A DNA stretch of 64,000 bases, taken from NCBI RefSeq assembly GCF_001659605.2, contig NC_035169.2, positions 19,158,263-19,222,262 on the forward strand. The letters run 5' to 3'. A model generated the notes under the pieces. The model saw only the letters and a program-made list of their open reading frames with translations, was not told the DNA's origin and ran no database searches. Position numbers and translations under genes: made by a program. This stretch comes from Manihot esculenta (lineage: Eukaryota; Streptophyta; Magnoliopsida; Malpighiales; Euphorbiaceae). Each line of letters begins with the position of its first letter. The stretch's first letter is position 1. Positions 1,204 to 44,771 of this stretch are shown here, piece after piece.

Positions 1204-1383
1204 TTAAATGTAATACCCGGCTAGACTCCGGTATCGGAATTCCTACTGTCCGGTGGAATCTCGGATGTCGGAAACTTCTAGAAGGGTAAAATCATGTTTT
1301 ATGAAATGATTTAATGTATTTTATAATTTTAAGTAAAAAGGAAATTGAGTTTTTAATGAAAATAGCCTTGGAGGAAGATTCAG

Positions 1384-1550
1384 GTTCGGCCGCCGAACGT
1401 GCATGTGCTTCGGGAGTGCTTTAGGCCCCCGAATGCATAAGTGAGGGAAGTCCAGGTTCGGCCGCCGAACCTTATGTTCGGCCGCCGAACGTGGCATGCG
1501 TGCGGAGGCACGTTAGGCCCCCGAAAGTGGCCTGGCCAGCCACCTATAAA
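1384..1550 (+). promoter_or_regulatory. U3 palindrome array plus TATA box (element A)
   Basis: Several copies of the palindrome GTTCGGCCGCCGAAC and weaker variants (TTAGGCCCCCGAA) occupy 1384-1530. They end 14 bp before a TATA box, CTATAAAGGGG, with TATAAA at 1545-1550. The same arrangement recurs in the 3' LTR (8886-9013, TATAAA at 9030-9035). Its position just upstream of the TATA box suggests a promoter or silencing role; this is inference. Confidence 0.6.
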
Positions 1551-1785
1551 GGGGTCCCCATGTTTGAACGGGCAAGCTTTTCTCCCCATTTTCGGCCAAG
1601 GTGAGTCTCCGCCGCCCTCATGCCGATCTTGAGTTCTTCCTTCAAATCTTTCATGATTTCTTATGAGTTTTAACTTCGTTTTGAAGATTTCAACCTTAGA
1701 TCGAAGTTGTGAAGCTTGGAGACCTCAGGAACCCATCTTCCCCAAATCTCCAAGTTAGGTCACACTCTCTCTCGATCTTCAAAAG

Positions 1786-2449
1786 GTAAGAGTCGATCTT
1801 TAGCTCATTATATGTTTTAAACGAGTTTCATGAAGATTTATGGGGTAGAAATGCATGTTAGGTTATTTTTGAGTTCATGGGTTTATGTTGAGTCTTTTTG
1901 AGCAATGTATGATGTTTATGTATGTTTGATGTGTTGTAAGTTGGGGTTTAGGATAGTTTGAAGCCCCTAGGAGCTTGAGTGCTTGAGTTTGCATGTTGTA
2001 GAATAGGTAAATGCATGATGGATTGGTTTTGGAAGCATTGTGCATGAAAGAGGCTGAGTTCTGCCCTTTGGAAGAACTCAGGTTCGGCAGCCGAAAAGAC
2101 TTTCGGCCGCCGAACCTGCCTGTGGAGGCCAACTTTTGGCTGCCGAACCCTGCCCCCGAAAGTGTACTTTCGGCTCTGGAAGGGAGTTTCGGCCGCCGAA
2201 GGTGCCGCCGAACATGCATGACTTTCGTCTCTGGAGGGAACCTTCGGCCGCCGAAAGTGCCGCCGAAGGTGCATGACTTTCGGCTCTGGAGGGACTTTCG
2301 GCCGCCGAACCTGCCGCTGAAAGTGCCCTGTCTAGCCTTCTTTTGCATGATTTTTATGATTGTTTTAAGGTGTTTTAGGGGGTTTTTGGGGAGTATCTTA
2401 GAGTCATATTTATGTATGTTTGGTCCTTCATTTGAGTCCAACTGTGTAG
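1786..2449 (+). other. possible leader intron 1 (element A)
   Basis: A donor-like CAAAAG|GTAAGAG lies at 1786 and an acceptor-like CTGTGTAG|GTT ends at 2449. Both signals are kept at the matching place in the LTRs of C, D, E and F, although the sequence between them has diverged. The second palindrome array lies inside the interval. No transcript is available to me, so splicing is inferred. Confidence 0.35.
2083..2325 (+). repeat. second palindrome array (element A)
   Basis: About ten copies of TTCGGCCGCCGAA and relatives (TTCGGCAGCCGAA, TGCCGCCGAA) alternate with TTTCGTCTCTGG or TTTCGGCTCTGG. The matching array in the 3' LTR is 9566-9817. Long open frames over it, in several reading frames, encode only repeated FGGR, RRPK or SAAE words and are by-products of the repeat. 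Confidence 0.85.
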
Positions 2450-2718
2450 GTTCAGACCCGAGGAACCGAGGACCCCAGCAGTGAGTCAGCTGCTTCAGTG
2501 TCTGTCAGAGCTAGCTAGAGGTGAGTGGAATAACTCTCTATGTTTTCAAAGCAAATAATGAAAGTTTAGCATAATTCACGCATCATGAATGCCATGAGTT
2601 ATATAGGGTTCTTGCATTAGAATTCACGAATATGTTGCATTGCATATTATGTTGTTGATGTGGATGAATGTTGAATGATCCATTAGCCCTCACACGTTAT
2701 GACATGATGTTATGATAT

Positions 2719-2858
2719 GGAAGTCCAGGCGTGCCTGCACTACGCCCCTGGCACTATGTAAGAGAAAGTCCGGGCGAGCCTGCACTACGCCCCTGATACT
2801 ATTGGATATGTATGTTATGCTATGGAAGTCCAGGCGTGCCTGCACTACGCCCCTGGCA
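2719..2858 (+). repeat. hairpin minisatellite (element A)
   Basis: Three units of the form GTCCAGGCGTGCC...CGCCCCTGGCA. The unit ends are complementary (CCAGG with CCTGG), so each unit can fold back. The 3' LTR copy is 10210-10349. Every related LTR here has a different minisatellite of similar shape at the same place. Confidence 0.8.
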
Positions 2859-3395
2859 TGATTAGACTGTATGGAGGGTTAAATGGTGATAAGTTTATCC
2901 TTGATGTGAATTATTTGTGCTGTGATGCATTCCATGTTATCATATGTTTTAAATACTATGTTTTATTATTCTGCTCACTAGGCTCTAGTAGCTCACCCCA
3001 CTCCCTTAACTCCAGGTTTGCAAGTACGGGTTAGACCAGGAGGTCAGCTAGAGTAAAGTTATGGTTATGTAATAGCTAGTGGTGGACATAATAAATATTG
3101 TAATGTAATGGTTTAATGATATTTTATGAAAACCAAACTTAATGTATGAATGAATGTTTCCTATTGGAGCATAGTTGAGGACTCCAATGAGGGGAATGAT
3201 GTTTATGAGTTATGCATGCACAGGTTGAGTTTGGTAATTGAATGAGAAAAGTTCAAATTTTTATGTATGTGTTGATCATGTATGGGATTTAACAGGTTTA
3301 CAAGTTTTATGTTAGGCTTGCTACGGGTCCCGGTGGCCTTAAGCCGACCCGGATCCTAGCGCGGGTAGCGGTCCGATTTTTGGGTCGTTACAGAT

Positions 3396-8713: not shown

Positions 8714-10883
8714 TGTAATACCCGGCTAGACTCCGATATCGAAATTCCTACTGTCCGGTGGAATCTCAGATGTCGAAAACTTCTAGAAGGGTAAAATCAT
8801 GTTTTATGAAATGATTTAATGTATTTTATAATTTTAAGTAAAAAGGAAATTGAGTTTTTAATGAAAATAGCCTTGGAGGAAGATTCAGGTTCGGCCGCCG
8901 AACATGCATGCGTTTCGGGAGTGCTTTAGGCCCCCGAAGGCATAAGTGAGGGAAGTCCAGGTTCGGCCGCCAAACATGGCATGCATGCGGAGGCACGTTA
9001 GGCTCCCGAAAGTGGCCTGGCCAGCCACCTATAAAGGGGTCCCCATGTCCGAACGGGCGAGCTTTTCTCCCCATTTTCGGCCAAGGTGAGTCTCCGCTGC
9101 CCTCATGCTGATCTTGAGTTCTTCCTTCAAATCTTTCATGATTTCTTATGAGTTTTAACTTCGTTTTGAAGATTTCAAGCTTAGATTGAAGTTGTGAAGC
9201 TTGGAGACCTCAGGAACCCATCTTCCCCAAATCTCCAAGTTAGGTCACACTCTCTCTTGATCTTCAAAAGGTAAGAGTTGATCTTTAGCTCATTATATGT
9301 TTTAAACGAGTTTCATGAAGATTTATGGGGTAGAAATGCATGTTAGGTTATTTTTGAGTTCATGGGTTTATGTTGAGTCTTTTTGAGCAATGTATGATGT
9401 TTATGTATGTTTGATGTGTTGTAAGTTGGGGTTTAGGATAGTTTGAAGCCCCTAGGAGCTTGAGTGCTTGAGTTTGCATGTTGTAGAATAGGTAAATGCA
9501 TGATGGATTGGTTTTGGAAGCATTGTGCATGAAAGAGGCTGAGTTCTGCCCTTTGGAAGAACTCAGGTTCGGCAGCCGAAGGGACTTTCGGCCGCCGAAC
9601 CTGCCTGTGGAGGCCAACTTTTGGTTGCCAAACCCTGCCCCCGAAAGTGGACTTTCGGCTCTGGAAGGGAGTTTCAGCCACCGAAGGTGCCGCCGAACAT
9701 GCATGAGTTTCGTCTCTGGAGGGAACCTTCGGCCGCCGAAAGTGCCGCCGAAAGTGCCGCCGAAGGTGCATGACTTTCGGCTCTGGAGGGACTTTCGGCC
9801 GCCGAACCTGCCGCCGAAAGTGCCCTGTCCAGCCTTCCTTTGCATGATTTTTGTGATTGTTTTAAGGTGTTTTAGGGGGGGTTTTTGGGGAGTATCTTAG
9901 AGTCATATTTATGTATGTTTGGTCCCTCATTTGAGTCCAACTGTGTAGGTTCGGACCCGAGGACCCCAGCAGTGAGTCAGCTGCTTCAGTGTCTGTCAGA
10001 GCTAGCCAGAGGTGAGTGGAATAACTCTCTATGTTTTCAAAGCAAATAATGAAAGTTTAGCATAATTCACGCATCATGAATGCCATGAGTTATATAGGGT
10101 GCTTGCATTAGAATTCACGAATATGTTGCATTGCATATTATATTGTTGATGTGGATATATGTTGAATGATCCATTAGCCCTCACATGTTATGACATGATG
10201 TTATGATATGGAAGTCCAGGCGTGCCTGCACTACGCCCCTGGCACTATGTAAGAGAAAGTCCGGGCGAGCCTGCACTATGCCCCCGGCACTATTGGATAT
10301 GTATGTTATGCTATGGAAGTCCAGGCGTGCCTGCACTACGCCCCTGGCATGATTAGACTGTATGGAGGGTTAAATGGGGACAAGTTCATCCTTGATGTGA
10401 ATTGTTTGTGCTGTGATGCATTCCATGTTATCATATGTTTTAAATACTATGTTTTATTATTCTGCTCACTGGGCTCTAGTAGCTCACCCCACTCTCTTAA
10501 TCCCAGGTTTGCAGGTACGGGTTAGACCAGGAGGTCAGCTAGAGTAAAGTAATGGTTATGTAATAGCTAGTGGTGGACATGATAAATATTGTAATGTAAT
10601 GGTTTAATGATATTTTATGAAAACCAAACTTAATATATGAATGAATGTTTCCCATTGGAGCATAGTTGAGGACTCCAATGAGGGGAATAATGTTTATGAG
10701 TTGTGCATGCACAGGTTGAGTTTGGTAATTGAATGAGAAAAGTTTAAATTTTTATGTATGTGTTGATCATGTATGGGATTTAACAGGTTTACAGGTTTTA
10801 TGTTAGGCTTGCTACGGGTCCCGGCGGCCTTAAGCCGACCCGGATCCTAGCGCCGGTAGCGGTCCGATTTTCGGGTCGTTACA
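8714..10883 (+). repeat. Element A 3' LTR
   Basis: 2170 bp, collinear with the 5' LTR and carrying scattered substitutions. It includes the U3 palindrome array (8886-9013), TATAAA at 9030-9035, the second array (9566-9817) and the minisatellite (10210-10349). It is followed directly by the TTAAA duplication. Confidence 0.95.
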
Positions 10884-10892
10884 TTAAACTTC

Positions 10893-11026
10893 CTTTTTTT
10901 TCCTCTAAATAATGAATTTAAATTCTACCCCTTGACTATCTGGATCCTTATTCATATTTAAAGTTAAAAATAAATTATATATGATTCAGATACTAGATTT
11001 TAAATTCATTATTTGAAGAAAAAAAG
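10893..11026. repeat. imperfect inverted repeat, MITE-sized
   Basis: The arm at 10893-10926 (AAATAATGAATTTAAATTCT) pairs imperfectly with 10995-11025. Further weaker pairing (CTATCTGGATCC with GATTCAGATACTAG) extends it inward. It could be a miniature inverted-repeat element or a simple hairpin. No clear target duplication was found because element A abuts it on the left. Confidence 0.4.
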
Positions 11027-13526
11027 AGGTGAAATCTAAAAAGTAAAGTCTTTAGCCTTTGGAGTTTGAAGATAAAAAAGCAATATAAGCTCATGTAAAG
11101 AGGTTAGTCATATAAAAATTAGTTGAAATATAAAGAAAATATATAAATCGGAAGTAATTAAGGGTTATTTAAGCAAAAAATAATTTTATTTTGGGCTAAT
11201 GAATTATTTTTATGCCACTAACTAATTAAATTACTCTTTTTGTAAAGTTAAGAAGTCGCATGATAACTTTTATAGGACATTGATTTTATACCTTCAAGGT
11301 ACACAAGCACAAATACTATATATAAATATCAAGTATCCAACAAAATCCGAGCTCCCAACAATTCAATCAATCAAACTAGACTAACAGTCAATTTTTCATT
11401 TTATTTGTCGATTTCATACTCAAGCTTTCTTTAATTTTCCAAGCATTGTCATTCATTTTTCCAAGCCTTGTTATTTAAATTCCAAGTTTTGTATTCACTT
11501 CAAGTAATCAAACTCAATGCAATTATAAAGAAGAGAAAAACAAGTGACTAGCTGTAGGTGGTTGGCTTCCTTTCTATTGGTTTAAGCGTTCTGTTTCCGT
11601 AATACTACTGCAGTGCTTTGAATTTTCTGCACTTGAAATAAGACAAATGATTAAATTAGAGTTACCACCCATGAGTCCTATTTTAGTCTAGATTCAGAAT
11701 AGTGGATATAAATAAAAGAAGATATTAGATATCCATCTCTATTTGAATTTCTCTCAGAATGAGCACCAATCCATGATTACCCTACTTAGATGTTGCTGAA
11801 TTGATTTCATGCAAGATTCATTTATATACACAATGGGACTTAACCATGCATATTTCTGAGTTTGGTTCAAAGTGCAAAATATATAAAATGTCATCTAAGT
11901 TGCTAGCATATGCAAATCTTCTTTTTAATTTTACCATATTTCTTAAAAATATTTACTAATTATGTTCATGCGATTTGAAAAGAGCAACCTTTAATCATAA
12001 ATTCTTATTTTTAATAACAATTTTATCTCACCAAGTGACTCTAAATTTACTATTCCATTTATATGCACCTTTGGGATTAACATACATAGAGAGGGGAGGA
12101 GAATAGAGAATTAAAACCAAGCAATATTAATGTACAACTAAAAAAGAAAGGAGAAATGAGTTTAAATTCGACAGAAGGCTTGTCACTCCGTTCTTTTTTA
12201 ATTTATCTACCAATTTTCCAATTTGTGCCTCAATCTATCTCTATCACATAAGGCTTGTCACTCCACTAAAGTCTAGGTGTTGAGAAATGCAAATTAGATA
12301 GATTCTAATCTTCTAGCCAACCATGAAATAACTTGTCTGAAAATTGCAAGTTTTGTCTCCACTATCTCTTATCTCTCTTGAAGAGTTAAGTGATGATTGG
12401 ATACAAATTAAGAATAGTTAAACTATAACAAGTTAATAAGTCCTTGAGCGTATATATATATATATTTCAACTTTTAAAAGTAGATTAAATAAACATTTCA
12501 AATTCTAAAAATAGAAAAAAAATTATACTTTCATCATATTCTATCTTATCTCTCTGTGACTAATATACTTTGGCCATGTTTAAGAGATTATGTTGCCTAT
12601 TTACCTCTTTAACTAAATATTTAGAATCATATCTTATTACATTACAATTAAATTAGTAATAATGTCTGCAAAGACAATGAACCCATAAAGAAATCTTATG
12701 AATCATTTGATAATAACAACTTATGCTTTAGGATGCGGTAGATACTCACATGATGTTATAGATTGGATACACAAGATAACTTATGAGGACCTCATGTGCT
12801 AAAGATTTATGTGCATCAAATAGTTGAATGTAAATTGGAAGAGAATTATAGTCTAATATATTTTGATATATATTTTTTTAAAGTTAAAATATTTTTGCCA
12901 ATGCAAAAATTACATTAATATTGGAAAATCCACTTAGTGATCTAAGTGGCACTAGATTTGTGATACGAAACAATTAGTTTTGGACTTTATGGCAGATTTG
13001 GACCAGACTTAACTTTTGTTGCTGACGTCCAATGGAAACTCACGATAACTTTTCGGAAAGGGAATTTCAAAACGCACGACTTTCAAAAATGTGACAAGAG
13101 CCAAAGGGCTATCACAAAGTTTGAGGTGAAAATTCCACTGTTTAAAAGGTTAATTTTGTATTTTAATTATTTTTTTAGATATTTTTATAATTTTACATAT
13201 CAGGATTTTTTCTATTATAAATGGCATTTCCTTGTCTATTTCAGATACTTTTCAATCTTTCAAGAATTTCAATAAAATTTTTTTCGACTTCTGACCTTTC
13301 ATTTTCATTATTTCGTTTTAGCCAAAGGTTATTGGTTAAAATTCCTTACGGAGTCTAATCAGTCTTATATCCATTTAGTTGCGACTTATGCCTAACTATT
13401 TATACAAAATTAGCCATTATAACTCACGAATTGCAAATATTGAATGAGTTCAACTCTGTGCTCTTAATTTGTTAAATAGTTTTCTTACTTGTAACTTGGT
13501 ACTAAATATCCATGTTTTGAGAGAGC
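11027..13526. other. AT-rich spacer, no gene identified
   Basis: A long AT-rich stretch with no convincing open frame and no recognised element ends. It contains a short TA run near 12450. Its composition differs sharply from the flanking elements, and it may be the least transposon-dense part of the window or a very old element. Confidence 0.5.
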
Positions 13527-13763
13527 TTATTTCTCAACTCGTGCAACTAGAACTATAATGTTATCTCCCATTGGCATTACTTGAAAACTTCTTGCTTCTA
13601 CTACTATAAGCCTCTTCTTGCAAATCCTCTTATCACCTCTTGAATTGCAAATGCTGCATGTTACCTTATGCCCGTTCCCAGGCAAGCTTCCTATTTTAGG
13701 CAACTTATTTGGGCTCATCTTTACTCTGTTTCTTTTTTCTCTTTTATTTTTTAACCTGTCCAA
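13527..13763 (-). pseudogene. possible MULE transposase C-terminal scrap
   Basis: A 78-codon frame with a basic segment followed by KVTCSICNSRG and RICKK. This resembles the C-terminal zinc knuckle of plant MuDR-type transposases, typically a basic GRP-like stretch and then C-x2-C-x4-H-x4-C. Here the His is missing (GDKRIC in place of GHNKRTC) and the spacing is short, so it would be a dead remnant. A chance frame cannot be excluded. Confidence 0.3.
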
Positions 13764-13950
13764 TTTTCTTTTGTAATCGAAAAGTCAACGGTTCCATAAT
13801 CTTTACAGTTCCAACTTGCTTCCCCTTTGAGGATGAATTGATAATTGGTAACCCTTGATATAAGTATTTTTGTGACACCATACAAAGACTTTATTGGGTC
13901 TAGTTTCTCATAACAAATTGTAAATATAGCATGGTGATGGGTATCGAAAC

Positions 13951-15496
13951 TGTTGTCCCTTGAAGCAACCCAAGAGGGGGGTGAATTGGGTTTATAAAAA
14001 ATTTAAGGCAAAAGAACAAATTAGAAGGCAATAAGGAAGAAGATAATCAACACAAGAATTTATAGAGGTTCAGCTATCTCAAGCCTACGTCCTCTCTTCA
14101 AGGTCCACCTTGAGAGTTCAACTCCACTATCAAATCTTCTTTGGGTGAAGATTAAAACCCTTACAATCTTAGAGCAAGCTTTTGCTCTTTACAAATCTCT
14201 TTTTCACTCAAGAGCAATTCTTTGCTCAATGCCACACTCACAACAACAGAATCTCTCAACAACCTTTACTCACTCTGCAAAGCCAACCAATTACAACTCA
14301 AAACAAACTTTCAAGAAATCAATGCTTTGGCTCAAGGTTTTGAGAGAGAGAGAATGAAAAATGCTGTAATCTCAATAAATATTTGCTTAGATGGTTGTTG
14401 TAACCTTTTCATATTAAAAACTCATTGTATTTATAGTTCAGTCATAAATATGGCCGTTGGGAGTGCATTAAATGCAAATAGAGCCGTTTATGTTCAGAAA
14501 TAACCGTTATATCTTTCTCAGAAAAATTCAAGTTCGGCGGCCTAAGCTAAAGTTCGGCGGCCGAACCAATTGAGGTGAAGAACATCACTCTTTAAAAAAG
14601 GACTTTCGGCAGCCTAAAGTCATAGTTCGGCGGCCGAACTTGTGTGACTTTCGTCTCTGTCCCTCTCTTTCGGAAGCCGAACTTTTGGCTTCGGAGGCAG
14701 ACTTAAAAGCACACTTTCGACAGCCGAAGGTAATGTTCGGCGGCCGAACATAGGTGACTTTTGCCTCTGTCCTTAACTTTCGGAAGCCAAACATTTAGCT
14801 TAGGGAGCAAACCACCTTCGGCGGCCGAAGGCCAATGTTCGGCGGCCGAACATACAGGACTTTCGTCTCTGTTTCTCACTTTCGGAAGCCGAAGGATGCA
14901 CTTTAGGGGGCAGGCTAAAAACACACTTTCGGCGGCGGAAAGTCAATGTTCGGCGGCCGAACATGTGGGACTTTCGTCTCTGTCCCTGACTTTCGGAAGC
15001 CGAAAGATGACTTTAGGGGGCACAAAAAATAAATCTTTAAATCTTTGAAAAATCATAACTTAGACTGTAAAATTCCTTTTTTCAATCCGTCTGAATTTTT
15101 GTAACCCATATTTTTAGATCTTTAATTTTGATAAAGAATAATTTCAAAATCGCTTCTTTTGGAAATTTTCATTTTAGTCCCTAAAAGTCAACTACTTAAA
15201 ATTTGGCCATATATAAAAAAAAACTTTTAGAGATGAAAGAAATCTTAAGCCATCACAATTAATTAATTGAAATTCACAATGAATAGAATTTAACAAAGTA
15301 TAAACAAAAATACTTTCTTATCCCTTTCTTGTGGTATGCTTCCAAAATAGCCATTTTTTCCTTTTGAGATTGAAGCAATTTCGTTCTTGTTAGCAAGGGA
15401 CCTACAAGCTCAACATAAACACTTTTGAAGATAATTAGTAGCATACCAATTGTTTATTAATCATAAAAACAAGGATTAGAACATTTAGGTTCAACA
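13951..15496 (-). repeat. SIRE-like copia 3' LTR
   Basis: A 1546-bp LTR with ends TGTTG...CAACA. On the - strand it starts TGTTGAACC directly after a purine tract AAAAAGGGGGAGAT and ends with CACCCCCCTCTTGGGTTGC. Both are familiar from SIRE/Maximus-type Ty1/copia LTRs. A TATA-like TATAAATA reads on the - strand at 14428-14435. The partner LTR is outside the window or lost. Confidence 0.65.
14532..15015 (-). repeat. palindrome array in the copia LTR
   Basis: Dense GTTCGGCGGCCGAAC and variants (CTTTCGGAAGCCGAA, ACTTTCGGCAGCC) alternate with GACTTTCGTCTCTGT at least three times. The two words are the same as in the chromovirus LTRs. The array ends about 100 bp upstream of the - strand TATA-like box. 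Confidence 0.85.
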
Positions 15497-15835
15497 ATCT
15501 CCCCCTTTTTGATGATGACAAACAATTGGTAAAGAATAAAATAATAATCATAGGTGTAGTGTGTGCATTTTAAAAATTATTCCCCCTTAATGTGCTCCCC
15601 CTGTCAAAAATATTTTATGCCATATTTAAAATGTGAGAAGACACATAAGGGAGGTTTTGACTCAATGCAATGAGATGCAATGGATCCTATATGAGTGAAT
15701 GAGTTCCAACAAAAAATGCATCTCAAGAAGAGCTATAATTATGCACAATAATTATGAGTCAAATAGATATCAATGTATCAACATCCATAAAACCAAAAGA
15801 GTTAAACTAATATAGCCAATATCCAAAACATCAAA
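15497..15835 (-). mobile_element. SIRE-like copia internal 3' end, truncated
   Basis: It begins with the purine tract (- strand AAAAAGGGGGAGAT at 15497-15510) and continues as AT-rich non-coding sequence with further C-runs (TCCCCCTTAATG, CTCCCCCTG). It stops where the B LTR starts at 15836, so B appears to have inserted into it. The rest of the element would lie beyond the right edge of the window. Confidence 0.55.
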
Positions 15836-16745
15836 TGTAACAGCCCGGAAATCGGTACCTCTCTGTAACGGCCCAAACTGCTCGGCGCTAGGATCCAGAT
15901 CGGCTTAAGGCCGCTAGAACCCGTAGCAAGCCTAACCTGAACTCCAAATAGCTGACAAAATCCCATACATGATCCGACCTAAACAGGCAACTGGAAAACC
16001 TTTCTTTAAAAACGACCAGACTTAACCTTAAAACACTCATATATATTAATCTGAAATAGCCCCCAGGGCTTACACTAGTAACTCTGTCCGTAGAGTCACG
16101 GGAATCAAACTCGGTCTTCCCTTACGGTCTGATCTTGGGTCAAGGGAATCAAACCCTGTCTTCCCTCACAGCCTGGTCTTGGGTCAAGGGAATCAAACCC
16201 TGTCTTCCCTCACAGTTATATTTTCACTGGAGTTTTCGAAACACAACATCTATTAAGCCTGGTTTGACTCATTTCTCATCAAGAAACATAAAACAGGATA
16301 CATGCATACACCAGGGATTAAGCAAACACTAGGCAAAGCACATACTAAACCATAAACATACTCATTTACTAGCTATTACATCTTTTACATATGTCTCTTT
16401 CATTTATATCATGTCCACACTATGCTAGTATACAAGCAATACGGGAGCCAACACTCTGCTGCTTCTGACTTCCCTGCTAACTCTGAACCTGCAAAACTGG
16501 GGTTAAGGGAAAAGGATGAGCTTCTAAAGCCCAGTGAGTAGAAACACTGAAAACAGTTCATTAATTACACACTTTCATGAAATGCGTCACAACACAAACA
16601 TTCCACGTCTCGGATTAGACATGACCTCAAAACACCCTCTGTCGGCACCCGATTCCCGAAGGAACTCACACAGGATTTTCACTACCATGACAGATCGTGG
16701 GCTATTGAAGTCACCTTGGTCCAATCCCCACTAACAGTAAATAAT
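15836..16745 (-). repeat. Element B LTR, left part
   Basis: It starts TGTAACAGCCCGG and carries the conserved chromovirus LTR end (GGCGCTAGGATCCAGATCGG) on the complementary strand. It includes about three units of a family-specific minisatellite built on GGGAATCAAACCCTGTCTTC (16098-16215). It is interrupted at 16746 by element C, with ATAAT duplicated, and resumes at 26558. Confidence 0.8.
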
Positions 16746-16926
16746 TGTAACGACCCCAACATGGACCGTCACCGGCGCTAGGATTCAGGTCGGCTTAAGG
16801 CCGCCAGAACCCGTAGCAAGCCTGCTATACTCTCTGTGTACCTGTAAAACTCATACATAATCATACATTTTCTGTGAAAATAAAAACTCTTTTCTCTGAA
16901 CCAAGGCTTAACCTGTGCATGCACTA

Positions 16927-17013
16927 TCTCTGTACTCTGTACTCTGTACTCTGTACTCTGTACTCTGTACTCTGTACTCTGTACTCTGTACTCTGTACTC
17001 TGAACTCTGTACC
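16927..17013. repeat. heptamer tandem array (TACTCTG)n
   Basis: About eleven head-to-tail units with one variant near the end. The partner array in the other C LTR is 24433-24519. Element F has seven and six units at the same LTR position (35472-35522 and 42817-42860). Confidence 0.9.
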
Positions 17014-17408
17014 TCTGACTAGAGCTTGCTCTAGATGGGTTAATTCATACCTGTTAAGCCTGGTTTTCACATACAGCAAAACATATATACATTACAGATC
17101 ATGTACAAACAGACATCACTAAGTCAAGCACATTTCTAACTGTATACACAACTATTACATCTCTTTAATATTACATGTCCACTCTAAACTATTACAAATA
17201 TCTTTACTCTTCCTGTACTCTGCTGGACTGTCCCTGTACACTATACACTGAACCTGCAAAACTGGGGTTAAGGGAGTGGGATGAGCTCTATAGCCCAGTG
17301 AGTAGAACAGTAAAACATCTCAATAAAATATGATCTTATGGAATGCACCATAGCACAGACAAGGCACATCAAGAGTAAACCTGTCACCACATAGTCCCAG
17401 TAACTCTG

Positions 17409-17600
17409 TGCCAGGGCGTAGAATCGAGCACCTGGTCTTCCTGTCATATATGTATATGTGTATATAACACCTCTGTACTTACCATTGCCAGGGCGTAGTC
17501 AAAGGCTCCTGGACTTGCTATACCTGCCAGGGCGTAGTCAAAGGCTCCTGGACTTCTCTATACCTGCCAGGGCGTAGTCAAAGGCTCCTGGACTTCCTGT
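17409..17600 (-). repeat. hairpin minisatellite (element C)
   Basis: Four units beginning GCCAGGGCGTAG and ending GGCTCCTGG or GCACCTGG, with short spacers. The unit ends pair (CCAGG with CCTGG). The 5' LTR copy is 24915-25106. Confidence 0.85.
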
Positions 17601-17972
17601 CTGAGACTATTGGATCATTCAGCATTCACTCACATCACCAAATAACGATGCAATGCAACATATTCGTGGATACTAATGCAATCAACCTATGGCATAATCA
17701 TGATGCATGAGATATGCTAAAACATTCCATAGTGCAAGTAAAAGAGTTAAGTTTAGTTCCACTCACCTCTGGCTAACTGGACTGACTCTGCAGGCTCTGG
17801 AGCAGAACTCACTGCTGCTCTCTCTGGTTCCTCTGGTCTGTACCTATACAGATAGACTGAAATGAGGGACCAAACTAGCTTATGACCAACTCTAGTAAAC
17901 TCCCCAAGAATCCCCTTAAACTCATTCTAACATCCATGCAAAGCATGCAAAGGAAAGCTAGACAGAACACTT

Positions 17973-18262
17973 TTGGCGGCAGGTTCGGCGGCCGAAAGTC
18001 CTCTCCAGAGACGAAATTCAAGCACCTTCGGCGGCCGAACTTCCACTTTCGGCTGCCGAACCCTTTCGGGGGCAAGTTTCGGAGGCCAAAAGGCACTCCA
18101 GAGACAAAAGTCTCTAACCTTCGGCGGCACCTTTGGCGGCCGAACTTCCCTCCAGAGCCGAAAGTCCAAAAGCTCGGGGGCAAGCTTGGGCAGCCAAAGC
18201 CACCTCCTCATACCTCTTCAGGGGTTCGGCGGCCGAATGTACCTTCGGCTGCCGAACCTGAG
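17973..18262 (-). repeat. second palindrome array (element C)
   Basis: Multiple TTCGGCGGCCGAA-type units alternate with CTCCAGAGACGAAA, the complement of the TTTCGTCTCTGGAG word. Like its counterparts, the array lies between the GTAAG donor-like and TGTATAG acceptor-like signals. The partner array is 25478-25764. Confidence 0.85.
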
Positions 18263-18774
18263 TTCATCAGCAGGGCAGAAACTTGCCCTGCCTCTCGCTA
18301 AATGCACCAACTCCTCTCCAACTTCACACCACACTTCCTCAACTTGCATACACTCATGTATATGCTCAAAGGGGTCAGAAACTACCTTAAAACCCCAAAA
18401 ACACAACTCAAACAACACAGAAACAAGCTCTATGCACAAAATCATCAAAACCTCTCTTTTTACCCTATTCATGCAACTCTCTCTACAAACCCCATAAAAC
18501 CTTCAGAAAACATAAAAACAAGCTCAGGATCTTCACTTACCTTGTGAAAACAAGTAGATGAAGGATCCTCACGTGGAGTTTTGGCGCAACTCCCCCTCAA
18601 ACTCTCCACACTTCAGAACTTTGAGTTTTTAGCTTAAAACCTTCAAAAGATCATAAAAACTAATCAAATCTTTGCATGATTTAATGAAAACATGAAGAAA
18701 TACTCACAACGGGCAGAGTTTCACCTCAGCAAGTGAAAGAAACGGTGTTCTACCGCTTCAACCGACTGAGGGCC

Positions 18775-18852
18775 ATTTATAGGTGGCTGGCCAGACCACC
18801 TTCGGCGGCCACACGTGAAACTGAAAGCCATGCATGTTCGGCGGCCGAACCT
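18775..18852 (-). promoter_or_regulatory. U3 palindrome unit and TATA box (element C)
   Basis: On the - strand, GTTCGGCGGCCGAAC lies upstream of TATAAAT (complement at 18775-18781). The 5' LTR has TATAAAT at 26281-26287 and one more palindrome unit. Confidence 0.6.
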
Positions 18853-19025
18853 GGCTTTTCTGCCTTGGTCATTTCACTCAAAAACTCATTTCCCTTATGC
18901 TTAAAACTTAATGAACATATCAAAACATGTGAGAAAACAGAAAGCAAACCCTGCTAGAGACCTCCAACATCAGAAACTCCATCGGAAAGTAGAATTCCGA
19001 TGCCGGACTCGAGCCGGGTATTACA

Positions 19026-24251: not shown

Positions 24252-26552
24252 TGTAACGACCCCAACATGGACCGTCACCGGCGCTAGGATTCAGGTCGGC
24301 TTAAGGCCGCCAGAACCCGTAGCAAGCCTGCTATACTCTCTGTGTACCTATAAAACTCATACATGATCATACATTTTCTGTGAAAATAAAAACTCTTTTC
24401 TCTGAACCAAGGCTTAACCTGTGCATGCACTATCTCTGTACTCTGTACTCTGTACTCTGTACTCTGTACTCTGTACTCTGTACTCTGTACTCTGTACTCT
24501 GTACTCTGAACTCTGTACCCCTGACTAGAGCTTGCTCTAGATGGGTTAATTCATACCTGTTAAGCCTGGTTTTCACATACAGCAAAACATATATACATTA
24601 CAGATCATGTACAAACAGACATCACTAAGTCAAGCACATTTCTAACTGTATACACAATTATTACATCTCTTTAATATTACATGTCCACTCTAAACTATTA
24701 CAAATATCTTTACTCTTCCTGTACTCTGCTGGACTGTCCCTGTACACTGTACACTGAACCTGCAAAACTGGGGTTAAGGGAGTGGGATGAGCTCTATAGC
24801 CCAGTGAGTAGAACAGTAAAACATCTCAATAAAATATGATCTTATGGAATGCACCATAGCACAGACAAGCCACATCAAGAATAAACCTGTCACCACATAG
24901 TCCCAGTAACTCTGTGCCAGGGCGTAGAATCGAGCACCTGGTCTTCCGGTCATATATGTATATGTGTATATAACACCTCTGTACTTACCATTGCCAGGGC
25001 GTAGTCAAAGGCTCCTGGACTTGCTATACCTGCCAGGGCGTAGTCAAAGGCTCCTGGACTTCTCTATACCTGCCAGGGCATAGTCAAAGGCTCCTGGACT
25101 TCCTGTCTGAGACTATTGGATCATTCAGCATTCACTCACATCACCAAATAACGATGCAATGCAACATATTCGTGGATACTAATGCAATCAACCTATGGCA
25201 TAATCATGATGCATGAGATATGCTAAAACATTCCATAGTGCAAGTAAAAGAGTTAAGTTTAGTTCCACTCACCTCTGGCTAACTGGACTGACTCTGCAGG
25301 CTCTGGAGCAGAACTCACTGCTGCTCTCTCTGGTTCCTCTGGTCTGTACCTATACAGATAGACTGAAATGAGGGACCAAACTAGCTTATGACCAACTCTA
25401 GTAAACTCCCCAAGAATCCCCTTAAACTCATTCTAACATCCATGCAAAGCATGCAAAGGAAAGCTGGACAGAACACTTTCGGCGGCAGGTTCGGCGGCCG
25501 AAAGTCCTCTCCAGAGACGAAACTCAAGCACCTTCGGCGGCCGAACTTCCACTTTCGACTGCCGAACCCTTTCGGGGGCAAGTTTCGGAGGCCAAAAGGC
25601 ACTCCAGAGACGAAAATCTCTAACCTTCGGCGGCACCTTCGGCGGCCGAACTTCCCTCCAGAGCCGAAAGTCCAAAAGCTCGGGGGCAAGCTTGGGCAGC
25701 CGAAGCCACCTCCTCACACCTCTTCAGGGGTTCGGCGGCCGAATGTACCTTCGACTGCCGAACCTGAGTTCATCAGGAGGGCAGAAACTTGCCCTGCCTC
25801 TCGCCAAATGCACCAACTCCTCTCCAACTTCACACCACACTTCCTCAACTTGCATACACTCATGTATATGCTCAAAGGGGTCAGAAACTACCTTAAAACC
25901 CCAAAAACACAACTCAAACAACACAGAAACAAGCTCTATGCACAAAATCATCAAAACCTCTCTTTTTACCCTATTCATGCAACTCTCTCTACAAACCCCA
26001 TAAAACCTTCAGAAAATATAAAAACAAGCTCAGGATCTTCACTTACCTTGTGAAAACAAGTAGATGAAGGATCCTCACGTGGAGTTTTGGCGCAACTCCC
26101 CCTCAAACTCTCCACACTTCAGAACTTTGAGTTTTTAGCTTAAAACATTCAAAAGATCATAAAAACTAATCAAATCTTTGCATGATTTAATGAAAACATG
26201 AAGAAATACTCACAAAGGGCAGAGTTTCACCTCAGCAAGTGAAAGAAACGGTGTTCTACCGCTTCAACCGACTGAGGGCCATTTATAGGTGGCTGGCCAG
26301 ACCACCTTCGGCGGCCACACGTGAAACCGAAAGCCATGCATGTTCGGCGGCCGAACCTCAACTTCGGCGGCCGAACCTGGCTTTTCTGCCTTGGTTCATT
26401 TCACTCAAAAACTCATTTCCTTATGCTTAAAACTTAATGAACATATCAAAACATGTGAGAAAAATAGAAAGCAAACCCTGCTAGAGACCTCCGACATTAG
26501 AAACTCCATCGAAAAGTAGAATTCCGATGTCAGACTCGAGCCGGGTATTACA
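24252..26552 (-). repeat. Element C 5' LTR
   Basis: 2301 bp. It carries the heptamer array (24433-24519), the hairpin minisatellite (24915-25106), the intron-type palindrome array (25478-25764), the TATA box (26281-26287) and a two-unit U3 palindrome array (26303-26381). Confidence 0.95.
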
Positions 26553-27610
26553 ATAATGCAATGCACCATAGTCGTGATTCTAATGCAATCACCCTAATAC
26601 ATATCATGGCATCCATGATGCATGAACTATGCTAAAACTTTCCATTTTCTCAGTGTAAAAGATTAAGTTTAGTTCTACTCACCTCTGCTCCTCTAGCAGA
26701 AAACGGAACTGACTCTGCAACACCTAATCCTGGTGACCTCCTCGATCTCTCGGGTCCAATCCTACACAAAGGGACTCGAATGAGGTGTCAAACTAGCTCA
26801 ATCATCATTCTATAGAACTCCCCATAAACCCTTTAAAACATCCTAGATCAATCACATAAAGCATACAAAAGAAGACTGGACAGAACACTTTCGGCGGCAG
26901 GTTCGGCGGCCGAATGTCCTCTCCAGAGCCGAAACTCAAGCACCTTCGGCGGCCGAATCTCTACTTTCGGCTGCCGAACCCTTTCGGGGGGCAAGGTTCG
27001 GGGGTTGAAACACACTCCAGAGACGAAAGTCTCTACCCTTCGGCGGCCGAATCCCCTTTCCAGAGCCGAACCTCAAAACTCTTGGGGGTGAGCTTTGGCA
27101 GCCAAAGCCATCTCTCAAGGGGTTCGGCGGCCGAATGCACTTTCGGCTGTCGAACCTGAGTTCATCCAGAACTCAGCTTCGTGCACAACCAAGCTCCTCA
27201 ATCCTTCCCACTCTCAAAACATGCATAACACAACTCCTTAACTCACATATACTCCAGTATATGCACAAAGGGGTCCAAAACTAACTTACAACCACAACAA
27301 AACAACAGAGCATAACACATAAACATTCTTTCATGCATAAACCATCAAAAACACATCTGAAAACCTAAACATGCCTCTCTATCCAAACCTCCATAAAACC
27401 TCTGTAAAACATTAAAACACGTTCAAGATCTTCCCTTACCTCTTGTAAACAAGAAGATGAACAATCTGAACAAAGAAAGATGAACCAACTCCTCTTCAAA
27501 TGCACCAAACCTCAAAACTTCACTTTTTAACTCAAACCCTTCAAAACCACAACAAAACACCTTAAAACTTTGCAAACTTTGATAAAACCATGAGGATGAG
27601 TCATGGAGAA
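26553..27610 (-). repeat. Element B LTR, right part
   Basis: It resumes the B LTR after the C insertion (the first five bases are the ATAAT duplication). It carries donor-like AGAG|GTGAGTAG signals on the - strand and a palindrome array at 26887-27155 with CTCCAGAGACGAAAG words. It is cut at 27611 by element D; the rest lies beyond the window. Confidence 0.8.
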
Positions 27611-29535
27611 TGTAATGACCCGAAAATCGGACAGCTACCGGCGCTAGGATCCAGATCGGCTTAAGGCCGCCGGGACCCGTAGCAAGCCTGACATGAAACC
27701 TGTAAACTTGAATAATCCCATACATGATCAACAATATGCATAAAAATTAAAATTTTTCTTTCCATACACATCAACCAAACTCAACCTGTGCATATACATT
27801 ATCATAACATTGATCCCTCTGTGGGATCTCATCAGTGCCCCCAATGGGTGACATAACCTGTGCTGAGTTGGTTTGCATAAACAACATAAAATATCCAAGA
27901 TCATGTATTAAAAGGGATACCAACATTCTATGGTCAAGCACACCTCTAATATCCATAAACATCATTACTTACCATTGCCCCAGGGCCTCCTCTGGGCTCC
28001 TAGTCTTCGAGTCCCATAACCGTGCCAGGCCATAGAATGGGGTCCTGGTCTTCCTGTCATGAACTAATTGGGTCATCCAACATTCACCCACATCAACAAC
28101 AATCGATGCAATGCGGCATATTCGTGAAAACTAATGCAATCATCCTATTGCATAATCATGATGCATGAAACATGATAAAACATTTAATTTCTTAATTTAA
28201 AAGATTAAGTTTAGTTCCACTCACCTCTGGCTGACTCTGACAACACCGAAGCAGCTGGACTCACTGCTGGGGTCCTCGGTTCCTCGGGTCCGAACCTACA
28301 CAGGTGGACTCAAATGAGGGACCAAACATACCTGAGCATAACTATAAACTACTCCCCAAAAACCCCCCTAAAACATCATGAAACAACCATAGAAAAACAT
28401 GCAAAGGAGGCCTGGACAGGGCACTTTCGGCGGCAGGTTCGGCGGCCGAAAGTCCCTCCAGAGCCGAAAGTCAGGCAGGTTCGGCGGCACCTTCGGCGGC
28501 CGAAACTCCCAGACAGAGACGAAACTCATGCATGTTCGGCGGCACTTTCGGCAGCCGAAACTGCCAGACAGAGACGAAAGTCTCCTTTCGGGGGCAAGCT
28601 TCGGCAGCCGAAAGGCTGCTTCCCCAGCCATGTTCGGCGGCCGAAAGTCCTTCGGTTGCCGAACCTGGTTTCTGCCAAAGGGCAGAAACTTGGCTCCCTT
28701 TGCACATTTCGCCTCCAAACTTATAAAACATGCATCAAACCTATTCTACCACACACAAACACAAGCATACATGTTCCTAGGGGCCTCAAACCAACATAAA
28801 CCCCATCTACAACACATCAAGTAACTCACATTGTTCATGAACATACATTTATACCCATAAACTCCAAAAACATAACCATAACCTAAACATGCATTCTAAC
28901 CCATAGATCTACTTAAAACTTACTTAAAACATGCAATGAGCTTAAGATCGGCTCTTACCTCTTGAAGATCGAGAGAGAGACGACCAAAAACTCGAAGGTG
29001 GGGGAGAGTGGGTTCTTGGACCTCCAAGCTCCAAAACTTTGCTTAAAAGCTCAAATCTTCAAAACAAAGTTAAAACAAATGAAAATCTTGAAAGATCTAG
29101 AGGAAAAACATCAAAAATGGATGGGGGACGGCGGAGAGCTCACCTTGGCCGAAAATGGGGAAAAAGCTCGCCCGTTTTCGGCTAAGGGACCCTTTTATAG
29201 TGGCTGGCCAGACCACGTTCGGGGGCCGAATGTGCCTCCGCATGCATGCCATGTTCGGCGGCCGAACCTGGACTTCCCTCACTTATGCTTTCGGGGGCCT
29301 AAAGCACACCCGCAATGCATGCATATTCGGCGGCCGAACTTGAGGTTCGGCGGCCGAACCTGAGTTTTCCTCCAATGCTATTTTCATGCAAAAACTCATT
29401 TTCTTTCATGCTTAAAACATAAAACACATTAATACATTTTATAAAAACATGGTTTTACCCTACTAGAGGCTTCCGACATCCGAGATTCCACCGGACGGTA
29501 GGAATTCCGATACCGGAGTCTAGCCGGGTATTACA
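27611..29535 (-). repeat. Element D 3' LTR
   Basis: 1925 bp. It contains a hairpin-type repeat pair (27977-28053), a second palindrome array (28424-28668), donor-like GTAAGAG on the - strand at 28958, a TATA box and a U3 array. It ends GCCGGGTATTACA. Confidence 0.93.
29193..29362 (-). promoter_or_regulatory. U3 palindrome array and TATA box (element D)
   Basis: On the - strand, three or more TTCGGCCGCCGAA units and two TTCGGCCCCCGAA-type units lie just upstream of TATAAAA (complement at 29193-29199). Confidence 0.6.
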
Positions 29536-29797: not shown

Positions 29798-29971
29798 TGT
29801 AATACCCGGCTAGACTCCGGTATCGGAATTCCTACCGTCCGGTGGAATTTCGGATGTCAGGAACTTCTAGAAGGGTAAAGACATGTTTTATAAAATGTTT
29901 TCATGAATTTTAATGTTTTAAAGTATGAAACTAAATGAGTTTTTGCATGAAAATAGCATTGGAGGAAAACC

Positions 29972-30162
29972 CAGGTTCGGCCGCCGAAAGTCAAGTTCGG
30001 CCGCCGAACATACATGCGTTTTGGAGGCACGTTAGGCCCCCGAAAGCATGAGTTAGGGAAGTTCAGGTTCGGCCGCCGAAAGTCAAGTTCGGCCGCCGAA
30101 CATTTCATGGATGCGGAGGCACATTCGGCCCCCGAACGTGGCCTGGCCAGCCACCTATAAAA
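29972..30162 (+). promoter_or_regulatory. U3 palindrome array plus TATA box (element E)
   Basis: Four TTCGGCCGCCGAA units in two pairs, with TTAGGCCCCCGAA and TTCGGCCCCCGAAC, end 17 bp before TATAAAA at 30156-30162. The paired units are separated by AGTCAAG, giving a regular 20-bp period. Confidence 0.65.
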
Positions 30163-30395
30163 GGGGCACTTAGCCGAAATGGGCGAGCTTTCTCCCATTT
30201 CCGGCCACAGCAAGCTTCCGACCTTTCCTTTTGCAACTCTTGTGTTCTTCCTCCAAATCCCTACTGTTTTTCTTGAGTTTTAAGCTTGCATTGAAGGTTT
30301 TGAGCTTTTAAACCAAGTTTTGGAGCTTTGGGAACTCAGGAGCTCATTTTCGTGGATCTCCAAGTTTAGGTCGTCTCCCTCTCGATCTTCAAGAG

Positions 30396-31004
30396 GTAAG
30401 AGCCGATCTTAAGCTCCTCATGTGTTTTAAGTAAGTTTTAAGTGATTTTATGGGGTAGAATGGCATGTATAGGGTTGTATGAGTTTTTAAGCAAATGTTA
30501 GGTTTTATGTGATTTATGAACAATGTGACATGTTTGAGTATGCTTGAAGTGTTGTAGTTGGGGTATTTGATGTTTTGAGGCCCCTAGGATCTTGTATGCA
30601 TGTTTTAAGTGAGGTATATGCATGATTGGTGAGTTTGGAGGCGAAAATGCACAAAGGAGCCAAGTTTCTGCCCTTTGGCAGAAACCAGGTTCGGCAGCCG
30701 AAGGCACTTTCGGCCGCCGAACATGGCTGGGGAGGCAGGCCTTTCGGCTGCCGAAGTTGCCCCCGAAAAGAGACTTTCGTCTCTGTCTGGGACTTTCGGC
30801 CGCCGAAGGTGTCGCCGAACCTACCTGAGTTTCGTCTCTGTCCAGGACTTTCGGCCGCCGAAGGTGCCGCCGAAAGTGCCCTGTTCAGCCACTTCATGCA
30901 TATCTCTATGTGATATTTTCAGGATGTTTTAGGGGGGTTTTTGGGGATTGTATTAGAGTTATGTTTATGTATGTTTGGTCCCTCATTGGAGTCCACCTGT
31001 GTAG
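30396..31004 (+). other. possible leader intron 1 (element E)
   Basis: Donor-like CAAGAG|GTAAGAG and acceptor-like CCTGTGTAG|GTTCGG. It contains the second palindrome array. Conservation of the two ends across families is the main support. Confidence 0.4.
30690..30879 (+). repeat. second palindrome array (element E)
   Basis: Seven or so units (TTCGGCAGCCGAA, TTCGGCCGCCGAA, TTCGGCTGCCGAA, TGCCGCCGAA) alternate with two TTTCGTCTCTGTC words. The partner array is 48534-48722. Confidence 0.85.
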
Positions 31005-31250
31005 GTTCGGACCCGAGGAACCAAGGACCCCAGCAGTGAGCCAGCTGCTACAGAGTTTGTCAGAGTCAGCCAGAGGTGAGTGGAACTAAACTTAACCTTT
31101 TAAATTAAGAAATGAAATGCTTTTATCATGCTTCATGCATCATGATCATATTATAGGTTGTTTGCATTAGAATTCACGACTATGCCGCATTGTATTGTTG
31201 TGATAGATGATAGTGGATGGACATTAGGATGATTCATTAGCCTTCTATAT

Positions 31251-31406
31251 ACGAAGTCCTGTGGTGCCCATAATAGGGCCGGGCAATACGAAGACCTGTG
31301 GTGCCCATAATAGGGCCGGGCAATAACTCCGAGTACGAAGTCCTGTGGTGCCCATAATAGGGCCGGGCAATACGAAGTCCTGTGGTGCCCATAATAGGGC
31401 CGGGCA
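31251..31406 (+). repeat. hairpin minisatellite (element E)
   Basis: Four 35-36 bp units of ACGAAGTCCTGTGGTGCCC followed by ATAATAGGGCCGGGCA. GTGCCC and GGGC can pair within each unit. The 3' LTR copy is 49094-49249. Confidence 0.9.
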
Positions 31407-32035
31407 TGGAGTTGAGGGATTTTTGAATCAGTCCATCTGTGATGTGATTTATTTGTGCAGTGACGCATTTCATGATAGCATGGTTTAAATATTCTTTTTT
31501 TCAGTTCTACTCACTGGGCATCTAGCTCACCCCTCTCCCCTAACCCCCAGGTTTGCAGGTACGAGATAGATAGAGGAGGCAAGACGAGAAAAAGTCATAT
31601 GTATGTAATAGTTAGTTTGTGGACATGACAATTGTATTATGATGAAATGTAAAAATATTCAGAATGTTATGTAATGAGGTTATTGAGGATAGAGTTGTGC
31701 TTGACCATAATGTATTGTTAATCCCTTTTGTATATACATGATCTTATGTTATGATGTTTATGTAAACTAACTCAACACAGGTTGTTTTGCCTTTAAGGCT
31801 TGATGAGATCCCACAGAGGGACTATGTTATGTATATGTTCAGAGTATGCACAGGTTGAGTTAGTTGATGACAGTTAGTATGAAGAAAAGTTTTAATTTTT
31901 ATGCATGTTGTTGATCATGTATGGGATTATACAGGATTACAGGTTATATGTCAGGCTTGCTACGGGTCCCGGCGGCCTTAAGTCGACCCGGATCCTAGCG
32001 CCGGTAGCGGTCCGGATTTCCGGGGCGTTACAGAG

Positions 32036-42637: not shown

Positions 42638-44766
42638 TGTAACGACCCCAAAATGGACCGTCACCGGCGCTAGGATTCAGGTCGGCTTAAGGCCGCCAGA
42701 ACCCGTAGCAAGCCTGCTATACTCTCTGTGTACCTGTAAATCTCATACATGATCATACATTTTCTGTGAAAATGAAAACTCTTTTCTGGCCCAAGGCTTA
42801 ACCTGTGCATGCACTATCTCTGTACTCTGTACTCTGTACTCTGTACTCTGTACTCTGTACCCCTGACTAGAGCTTGCTCTAGATGGGTTCATTCATACCT
42901 GTTAAGCCTGGTAGTCCACATACAGTAAAACATATACATATACCGATCATGTACAACACAATAGATTTACAACTACTAAGTCAAGCACATATATAACTAT
43001 TACATCTCTTTAACAGTACATGTCCACTCTAGACTATTACATTTCTCTTTATTCTTTCTCTGAACCCTGCTGGACTGTCCCTGTACACGGTATACTGAAC
43101 CTGCAAAACTGGGGTTAAGGGAGTGGGATGAGCTCTATAGCCCAGTGAGTAGAACAGTAAAACAATTCATTAACAGATGCTCTCATGGAATGCGTCATAA
43201 CACAAACATTTCACATCAAGAGTAAACCTATCACCACATAGTCCCAGTAACTCTGTGCCAGGGCGTAGTCAAAGGCTCCTGGACTTCCTGTCATATATGT
43301 ATATGTGTATATAACACCATTGTACTTACCATTGCCAGGGCGTAGTCAAAGGCTCCTGGACTTTACTATATACTTGCCAGGGCGTAGTCAAAGGCTCCTG
43401 GTCTTTGCTATACTTGCCAGGGCGTAGTCAAAGGCTCCTGGTCTTCCTGTCTGTGACTATGGGATCATTCAGTATTTACCCACATCAACAAATAACAATG
43501 CAATGCAACATATTCGTGGATACTAATGCAATCAACTTATGGCATAATCATGATGCATGAGATATGCTAAAACATGTCTTTGATCAATTCAAAAAGCATT
43601 AAGTTTAGTTCCACTCACCTCTGGCTATCTGGACTGACTGACTCTGCAGGCTCTGAAAACTCTGGAGCAGTACTCACTGCTGCTCTCTCTGGTTCCTCTG
43701 CTCTGTGCCTACACAGATAGACTCAAATGAGGGACCAAACATACTCGGACATACCGCTAAACATCTCCCCTTAAAACCCCTTAAAACACCTTAGACCAAA
43801 CATAGAAAACATGCAAAGGAAGGCTGGACAGGGCACTTTCGGGGGCACCTTCGGCGGCCGAATGTCCCTTCCAGAGACGAAAGTCAGGCATGTTCGGCGG
43901 CCTAACTTGGACTTTCGGGGGCCGAACCTGAGTTCATCCAGAACTCAGTTTCGTGCACAAGGACGCCTGCCAATCCCTCCATCACCTGCTCAGACCTCAA
44001 CACATGCATTTAACCCTTCTAAAACATGCATAAACACTTCAATAAGCATAAAGGAGCTTCAAATAAATTAAACTCCAACAAACAACACACAACAACCATA
44101 CACAAAGCATAGGATCCATACACCCTAATATGGACAACTTATGCATACTCAAGCACAACTCCCCTTTCCCATCATCAAACTCATTTAAAACATGATAAAA
44201 ACAAAGGATTCACTCTTACCCTTTGAAGAACAAAGGCTGGCGTGACCCCAAACTTGAAGAAATGAAGATTCAAGCTTCACAAGTTCTCAAACTCCACAAC
44301 TTCTCAAAACTAGTTAAAACTCACCATAAACTTATTTTTCTTTGAAAGATTTGATTAGAAACTCAAGAAAATCACCAAGGGGAAACATGTGCTTGTTCCT
44401 GACCCAAAGGAGAGCTTAAGCACCTCCATAGTCGGCCATATCCACTTAAAAAAAGTGAACCACCGCTTCACGTTCGGTGGCCAAAGCTACATGTAACACC
44501 TCATCACGTTCGGGGGCCGAACATTGAGTTTAGGGGGCCGAACATGAGCTACTTTAGGCGGCCGAACTTACACTTTAGGGGGCCGAAAGTGGCAAAACTT
44601 TCCTTAGCCTTGTTTCTTCAAAACTTATTCCTTTGCTAAAACAAAAGCTTAAAACATCTAAAAAAAACATTTTAGAAAACCTCCACTCTCCCTTCAGGGA
44701 TGCTCTGACATCTTCGATTCCACCGAACGATAGGAATTCTGATGTCTGAACATGCCGGGTATTACA
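42638..44766 (-). repeat. Element F 5' LTR
   Basis: 2129 bp. It contains the heptamer array (42817-42860, six units), a four-unit hairpin minisatellite (43256-43446), a short second array (43835-43929), donor-like GG|GTAAGAG at 44219 and the U3 array (44471-44590). Confidence 0.96.
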
Positions 44767-44771
44767 GACCA

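Follow-up and report, generated by a model that had tools for sequence, protein, structure and literature searches.

The stretch of DNA analyzed here (the window, 64 kb of the Manihot esculenta genome) consists mostly of nested LTR retrotransposons: four chromovirus elements (E1 to E4) with two further chromovirus LTR fragments (F27 and F28), one Athila element, and a Sirevirus LTR (Table 1). Elements were called from LTR pairs, primer-binding sites, and Pfam matches; the primer-binding-site motifs used in the assignment, including the Asp-type site of Athila, are those that we take to belong to the respective lineages. In the E4 piece, integrase domains were found together with a Chromo match of 22.0 bits (E 1.6e-4) that falls under the Pfam cut-off of 25.1, and E1, E2, and E3 carry the chromovirus label by similarity to E4. 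E4 sits within E3, flanked by an intact 5-bp target duplication (GACCA at 35288-35292 and 44767-44771), and a TTAAA target-site duplication surrounds E1 (1204-1208 and 10884-10888). The Athila element is bordered by CAATA on each side, and its label, assigned without a tree, is based on an initial annotation of the window, the Asp-type primer site, and gag and reverse transcriptase (RT) matches in Pfam. The best four matches of its gag frame are Manihot esculenta proteins with 66 to 78% identity. Its pol frame stops after RNase H, leaving only about 1.07 kb before the 3' LTR (51741-52809), and by this remaining space the integrase seems to be missing. Another retrotransposon gag of plant type, P0098, is filed under Candidatus Burkholderia verschuerenii and may be plant DNA that ended up in the assembly of a bacterium.

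The copia-type LTR can be placed more closely. Judged by its AGGGGGAG-AT/TG junction, a second polypurine tract (PPT) octamer, and an inverted repeat, it is the 3' LTR of a Sirevirus. The junction motif AGGGGGAGATTG has its sole match in the window at 15506 on the minus strand. Two identical PPT octamers (at 15506 and 15602) lie upstream of the LTR in the short internal stretch that is retained; in the work by Bousios and colleagues (2010, PMC2829016), Sirevirus linkers are described as carrying 3 to 5 octamers each. The inverted repeat bordering the PPT has a right arm that begins 27 bases inside the LTR and aligns over 26 bp, and the same text gives as part of the Sirevirus definition a PPT-bordering inverted repeat with its right arm approximately 28 bp inside the LTR. 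By eye, approximately 340 bp of Sirevirus internal sequence precede chromovirus-like LTR sequence, and no copia pol is retained at this locus.

Table 1. Elements, arrays, and related features in the window.
Feature	Position	Strand	Remarks
Sirevirus (copia) 3' LTR, TGTTGAAC...GGGACAACA, 1546 bp	13951-15496	-	AGGGGGAG-AT/TG junction, LTR ends
Sirevirus U3 array, LTR bases 493-964	14533-15004	-	13 palindromes (up to 2 mismatches), 4 antisense second words
TATA-like CTATAAATAC, LTR base 1061	14427-14436	-	97 bp past Sirevirus array
Sirevirus terminal polypurine tract AGGGGGAG	15499-15506	-	identical second copy at 15595-15602
Chromovirus E1 5' LTR (1209-3392), array 1 in U3	1385-1525	+	TATA-like word at about 1544
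Chromovirus E1 5' LTR, array 2	2083-2309	+	second word sense
Chromovirus E1 3' LTR (8714-10883), arrays 1 and 2	8890-9806	+	
Chromovirus E2 3' LTR (about 16745-19025), arrays	17984-18849	-	
Chromovirus E2 5' LTR (24252-26552), arrays	25490-26375	-	
Chromovirus LTR fragment F27, array	26902-27154	-	
Chromovirus LTR fragment F28 (about 28040-29535), arrays	28438-29358	-	
Chromovirus E3 5' LTR (29798-32032), arrays	29976-30862	+	arrays at 29976-30136 and 30690-30862
Chromovirus E4 3' LTR (35293-37449), arrays	36512-37270	-	
Chromovirus E4 5' LTR (42638-44766), arrays	43850-44587	-	
Chromovirus E3 3' LTR, arrays	47820-48706	+	arrays at 47820-47980 and 48534-48706
Athila 3' LTR (50121 to about 51741), array	51393-51550	-	second word antisense
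Athila 5' LTR (57133-58751), array	58403-58560	-	
Athila pol palindromes, protease-RT linker	54469-54685	-	4 exact and 1 with 1 mismatch; frames R-P-P-N, R-Q-P-K
Athila gag palindromes	56934-56970	-	two exact; frame S-A-A-E

Two short words fill the arrays of all three lineages. The palindrome TTCGGCSGCCGAA is dyad-symmetric around a CGG-CCG core (CGG-CSG-CCG), and the companion ACTTTCGTCTCTG is a non-palindromic word of 13 nt. At up to two mismatches, the window holds 123 palindrome sites, against a mean of 0.28 and a maximum of 2 in 100 shuffles, and 31 sites of the second word, against a mean of 1.39 and a maximum of 5. The initial annotation had reported the same two words in copia, chromovirus, and Athila LTRs, and these counts bear it out; the places it named contain palindromes in each case (14533-15004 in the copia LTR, 30690-30862 in a chromovirus LTR, and 51393-51550 in an Athila LTR). 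Exact copies with any centre base, TTCGGCNGCCGAA, number 72 in the window. Chromovirus LTRs and LTR fragments account for 58 of them, the Sirevirus LTR and the internal region of Athila for 6 each, and the Athila LTRs for 2; there are none elsewhere. The runner-up among odd palindromes of 13 nt has just 3 copies. Per LTR, there are 13 palindromes in the Sirevirus, 8 to 11 in E1, E2, and E4, and 4 in Athila, which has 7 more in its coding region; none was found at two mismatches in 10884-13950 or 15836-16745. Rfam and tRNA scans returned no matches.

The words also keep a register. At all 31 sites of the second word (23 chromovirus, 4 Sirevirus, and 4 Athila, with paired LTRs counted twice), a palindrome with at most two mismatches starts 21-22 bp past the start of that word, and the companion thus stands at one distance from the palindrome in each lineage. 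A palindrome 20-22 bp before the second word is found in 4/4 Sirevirus units, 6/23 chromovirus units, and 0/4 Athila units; where it is missing in Athila and in most units of chromoviruses, a GTGCCnCCGAA-type half-site takes its place. Consequently, the alternation of the two words first described for these LTRs holds on the downstream side but not as a strict pattern on both sides. Nor does every array include the second word, since chromovirus array 1 (e.g., 1385-1525) is composed of palindromes without it. Relative to the element, the second word is sense in chromoviruses and antisense in the Sirevirus and Athila. The tandem unit is approximately 55 bp, and in the Sirevirus 102 to 111 bp. 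For helical phasing, the 62 dependent spacings gave a resultant of 0.32 at 10.5 bp and 0.38 at 11 bp, values from which we draw no support.

How the words change, both between families and within elements, bears on what maintains them. Across five chromovirus LTRs (E1 to E4 and F28), divergence was 6.7% in words, 33.8% in array spacers, and 33.3% in flanks, or 5.0, 29.8, and 33.3%, respectively, with a stricter mask. Word columns in this comparison were picked by likeness to the word, which biases them toward conservation, and repeat units in the alignment may be out of register; taking the mask from one sequence and the score from the other lessens the column-choice bias without removing it. 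Between the 5' and 3' LTRs of five elements, words had changed at 17/702 bases (2.4%) and the rest at 107/9583 (1.1%), counts that pool dependent pairs. By pair, the changes in words versus the rest were 7/169 versus 58/1987 in E1, 7/169 versus 24/2110 in E2, and 3/78 versus 12/1530 in Athila, while the two young pairs of the five, E3 and E4, had no word changes. Fifteen of the 17 word changes are C/T or G/A, as expected for methylated CpG-rich DNA. The CpG ratio is 0.78-1.12 in four arrays versus 0.19-0.55 in the remainder of those LTRs, and by this ratio the arrays form CpG islands. The words decay in resident copies yet persist between families, a pattern best explained by selection acting on them while copies are active.

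Outside the arrays, the LTRs of the three lineages look unrelated. When array-free parts of the Sirevirus, Athila, E1, E2, and E4 LTRs were compared (E3, F27, and F28 were left out), 7/7 cross-lineage comparisons were matched by 11 to 79 of 100 dinucleotide shuffles, in agreement, for the tested pairs, with the earlier statement that no other LTR similarity links the lineages. Within the chromoviruses, array-free E1 scored 332 against E2 and 330 against E4, and none of 20 shuffles scored as high. The arrays themselves beat all shuffles in 12/13 comparisons, and the remaining one was tied by 1/100. One explanation for such sharing is convergence alone, in which a single host factor independently favors identical words and spacing in each lineage without any transfer of array DNA. 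We looked to the spacers, holding the words fixed and shuffling the spacers alone 300 times for 11 cross-lineage pairs under a narrow and a wide mask; the sample has one Sirevirus and one Athila element. Athila spacers match those of chromoviruses beyond the words in 4/5 families under both masks, the score being attained by 0 to 6 of the 300 shuffles (narrow and wide: 0 and 0 for E1, 0 and 6 for E2, 0 and 2 for E3, 0 and 2 for F28). The match to E4 is weak (11 and 55), and the within-chromovirus control, E1 against E3, gave 0 and 0. A column permutation of spacers at fixed register (1, 0, and 8 of 2000) drew its signal partly from word edges and is superseded by the word-fixed test. The Athila and E1 arrays align over 120 ungapped bp with 95 identities, spacers included. 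The Athila-chromovirus match is inverted relative to element transcription, which is not expected from template switching between two sense RNAs; DNA-level exchange would give it.

From these comparisons, a relationship at the DNA level, by array transfer, is likely between the Athila arrays and those of chromoviruses. In the Sirevirus, the spacers give a borderline result between an old transfer and a parallel gain: 47 and 64 of 300 shuffles (narrow and wide) reached the score against E1, 18 and 82 against E2, 6 and 71 against E3, 1 and 10 against E4, 3 and 43 against F28, and 41 and 27 against Athila. That these spacers barely exceed word-fixed shuffles is what convergence predicts, as is the combination of conserved words and free spacers, and repeated gains of heat-response elements in Brassicaceae COPIA families (PMC5059998) offer a parallel. 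However, convergence does not account for the Athila-chromovirus spacer matches or for the recurrence of a non-palindromic companion at one distance in three lineages, and as the whole explanation we consider it unlikely. The initial annotation had offered array movement or selection by a common factor as alternatives. The two together are favored, given that words are kept and Athila-chromovirus spacers match, with transfer a candidate reading in the case of the Sirevirus.

The palindrome is also found outside LTRs. Besides the Athila LTRs, where it was first noted, the Athila gag and pol frames carry six exact copies (any centre base), which the initial annotation did not mention. Two of these are in gag, where the reading is S-A-A-E, and the other four are in pol, with the readings R-P-P-N or R-Q-P-K; there is also one copy with a mismatch. 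In 1000 synonymous-codon shuffles of these frames, the mean was 0.027 palindromes and the largest count 1. One DNA word in two reading frames points to a cause at the DNA level. The gag boxes fall in a stretch that is absent from the Manihot proteins P0001, P0002, P0003, and P0121. In pol, the protease-RT linker that holds the boxes has 188 residues versus 70 to 113 in four non-Manihot homologs (the fetched Manihot proteins in the alignment stop short of the linker end), and it is longer than in 74/76 fetched homologs with a measurable linker. At least two such peptides were found in none of the 235 fetched homologs, just 85 of which reach the linker end. Two chromovirus coding stretches that were tested had no palindromes.

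Within the LTRs, the arrays start at base 493 in the Sirevirus and at about base 177-199 elsewhere. Downstream of the U3 array, E1, E2, and E3 have a TATA-like word after 19-20 bp, and the Sirevirus has one after 97 bp; neither the two Athila LTRs nor the sequence following or around the E4 U3 array yielded a strict TATA-like word. Chromoviruses have their second array approximately 530 bp past the TATA, where it may serve in the leader or in chromatin. With that placement, and with Athila coding boxes that fall in neither promoter, a pure enhancer role is incomplete.

The presence of the same array, mostly near the switches of three distant lineages, suggests a control module that can pass between them and is kept by protein recognition. 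With the sequence as our guide, we lean toward reading the arrays as protein-binding control modules of the kind known as repeated-motif (RM) boxes, transferred between lineages at least once. TTCGGCSGCCGAA would be a dyad-symmetric protein site, probably for a dimer, and ACTTTCGTCTCTG its asymmetric companion at a set 21-22 bp. Placed ahead of the LTR promoter, the U3 arrays would serve as enhancers and be read by a host DNA-binding factor; since one factor can serve any promoter, the module would pay in any LTR lineage. Array DNA would have passed between Athila and chromoviruses at least once, with self-reverse-complement words letting recombination join arrays in either orientation. Selection would then preserve words in copies that are active and leave the spacers to drift, and the CpG-rich words would decay in dead copies. 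Protein binding, enhancer activity, the host origin of the factor, recombination, and the Sirevirus transfer are all steps that we infer. A broader proposal, to which we would give somewhat less than an even chance, is that of a regulatory cassette that is itself exchangeable in this plant lineage: it would have crossed the copia/gypsy divide, occur in either orientation, have made its way into coding sequence, and stay in place through a single host factor needed by several unrelated lineages. As to the factor, the palindrome includes GCCGCC, the core of the ERF GCC-box. An ERF GCC-box factor was considered and rejected, as GCCGCC is absent from variants such as TTCGGCAGCCGAA and TTCGGAAGCCGAA.

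Other roles for the arrays can be envisioned. VANC proteins act as anti-silencing proteins on VANDAL transposons, and the arrays could likewise be putative landing sites for an element- or host-coded protein that keeps copies unmethylated. Their occurrence at several places in an element, beyond the promoter front, and their retained CpG fit such a role, but the preponderance of C/T or G/A among the word changes of LTR pairs points to methylation of the arrays in resident copies, and we find an anti-silencing role improbable. Slightly less probable still is that the palindromes matter as RNA hairpins feeding silencing. All three arrays that were folded as RNA did so far better than shuffles (z -9.3, -6.5, and -5.0), and maize Sirevirus LTR palindromes are called small-RNA hotspots in PMC5311732. 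However, good folding is a given for any palindrome array, which leaves the z-scores without discriminating power; the companion word lacks palindromic symmetry, and element-level selection for retaining a silencing target is hard to explain. Finally, a functionless tandem repeat, spread and homogenized by slippage and gene conversion as passive cargo, would suit the tandem units but is very improbable, as homogenization would preserve the spacers too, yet these diverge like flanks, and CpG-rich words ought to decay first.

If a control module is indeed common to both superfamilies, a single protein could govern how active much of the mobile DNA in a genome is, and that protein should be findable with the array as bait. 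LTR promoters would evolve partly by the exchange of parts between lineages, and RM boxes would be no peculiarity of Sireviruses. In the open-licence literature, we found no report of a palindrome array common to copia and gypsy LTRs, and searches with the words themselves gave unrelated matches only. Two palindromes within 35 bp occurred in 1 stretch of IMG/VR and 4 of a one-genome-per-prokaryote-species set, each in a viral or prokaryotic record, which is uninformative for plants. A translated chromovirus array matched 26 proteins, of which the 3 named ones are all from Manihot esculenta and the other 23 are ENA proteins; this hints that the array is tied to Manihot, by a method limited to close copies whose frame is open.

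Among known systems, that of maize is reportedly close: Bousios 2016 is said to have proposed Sirevirus LTR palindromes as RNA hairpins that feed silencing. Both there and here, hairpin-capable palindrome arrays lie in the regulatory part of the LTR; the maize case is one within Sirevirus families. The closest likeness is to RM boxes, described in PMC2829016 as palindromic, with a CGG-CCG core and at least 8 copies per element, situated in U3 upstream of the TATA, and associated with CpG islands. There, the cluster starts 200-400 bp into the Sirevirus LTR, and further boxes are found before env and, in two elements, at the start of env. For the most part, the arrays reported here resemble these boxes, and the copia LTR is itself that of a Sirevirus. 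However, RM boxes are presented in that text as Sirevirus-specific and absent from classic Ty1/copia, whereas the box described here also occurs in gypsy LTRs (chromovirus and Athila), extends into gag and pol coding sequence, and stands in fixed register with a companion word. CGG-CCG palindrome arrays ahead of the TATA are already known from Sireviruses, which the initial annotation did not recognize, and, relative to that account, their sharing across superfamilies is new. Two further systems are related in other ways. In Brassicaceae COPIA LTRs (PMC5059998), families likewise acquired sites for the same host factor, but by independent gains within copia and without an array common to superfamilies. 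In grass pararetroviruses (PMC5491270), noncoding regulatory sequences are shared through region-specific recombination, and there, as here, different elements of one host have regulatory DNA in common; the exchange is between pararetroviruses, whereas ours involves LTR retrotransposon lineages whose other LTR parts cannot be aligned. Together, the two provide precedents for the two halves of our explanation, the gain of sites and the exchange of regulatory DNA.
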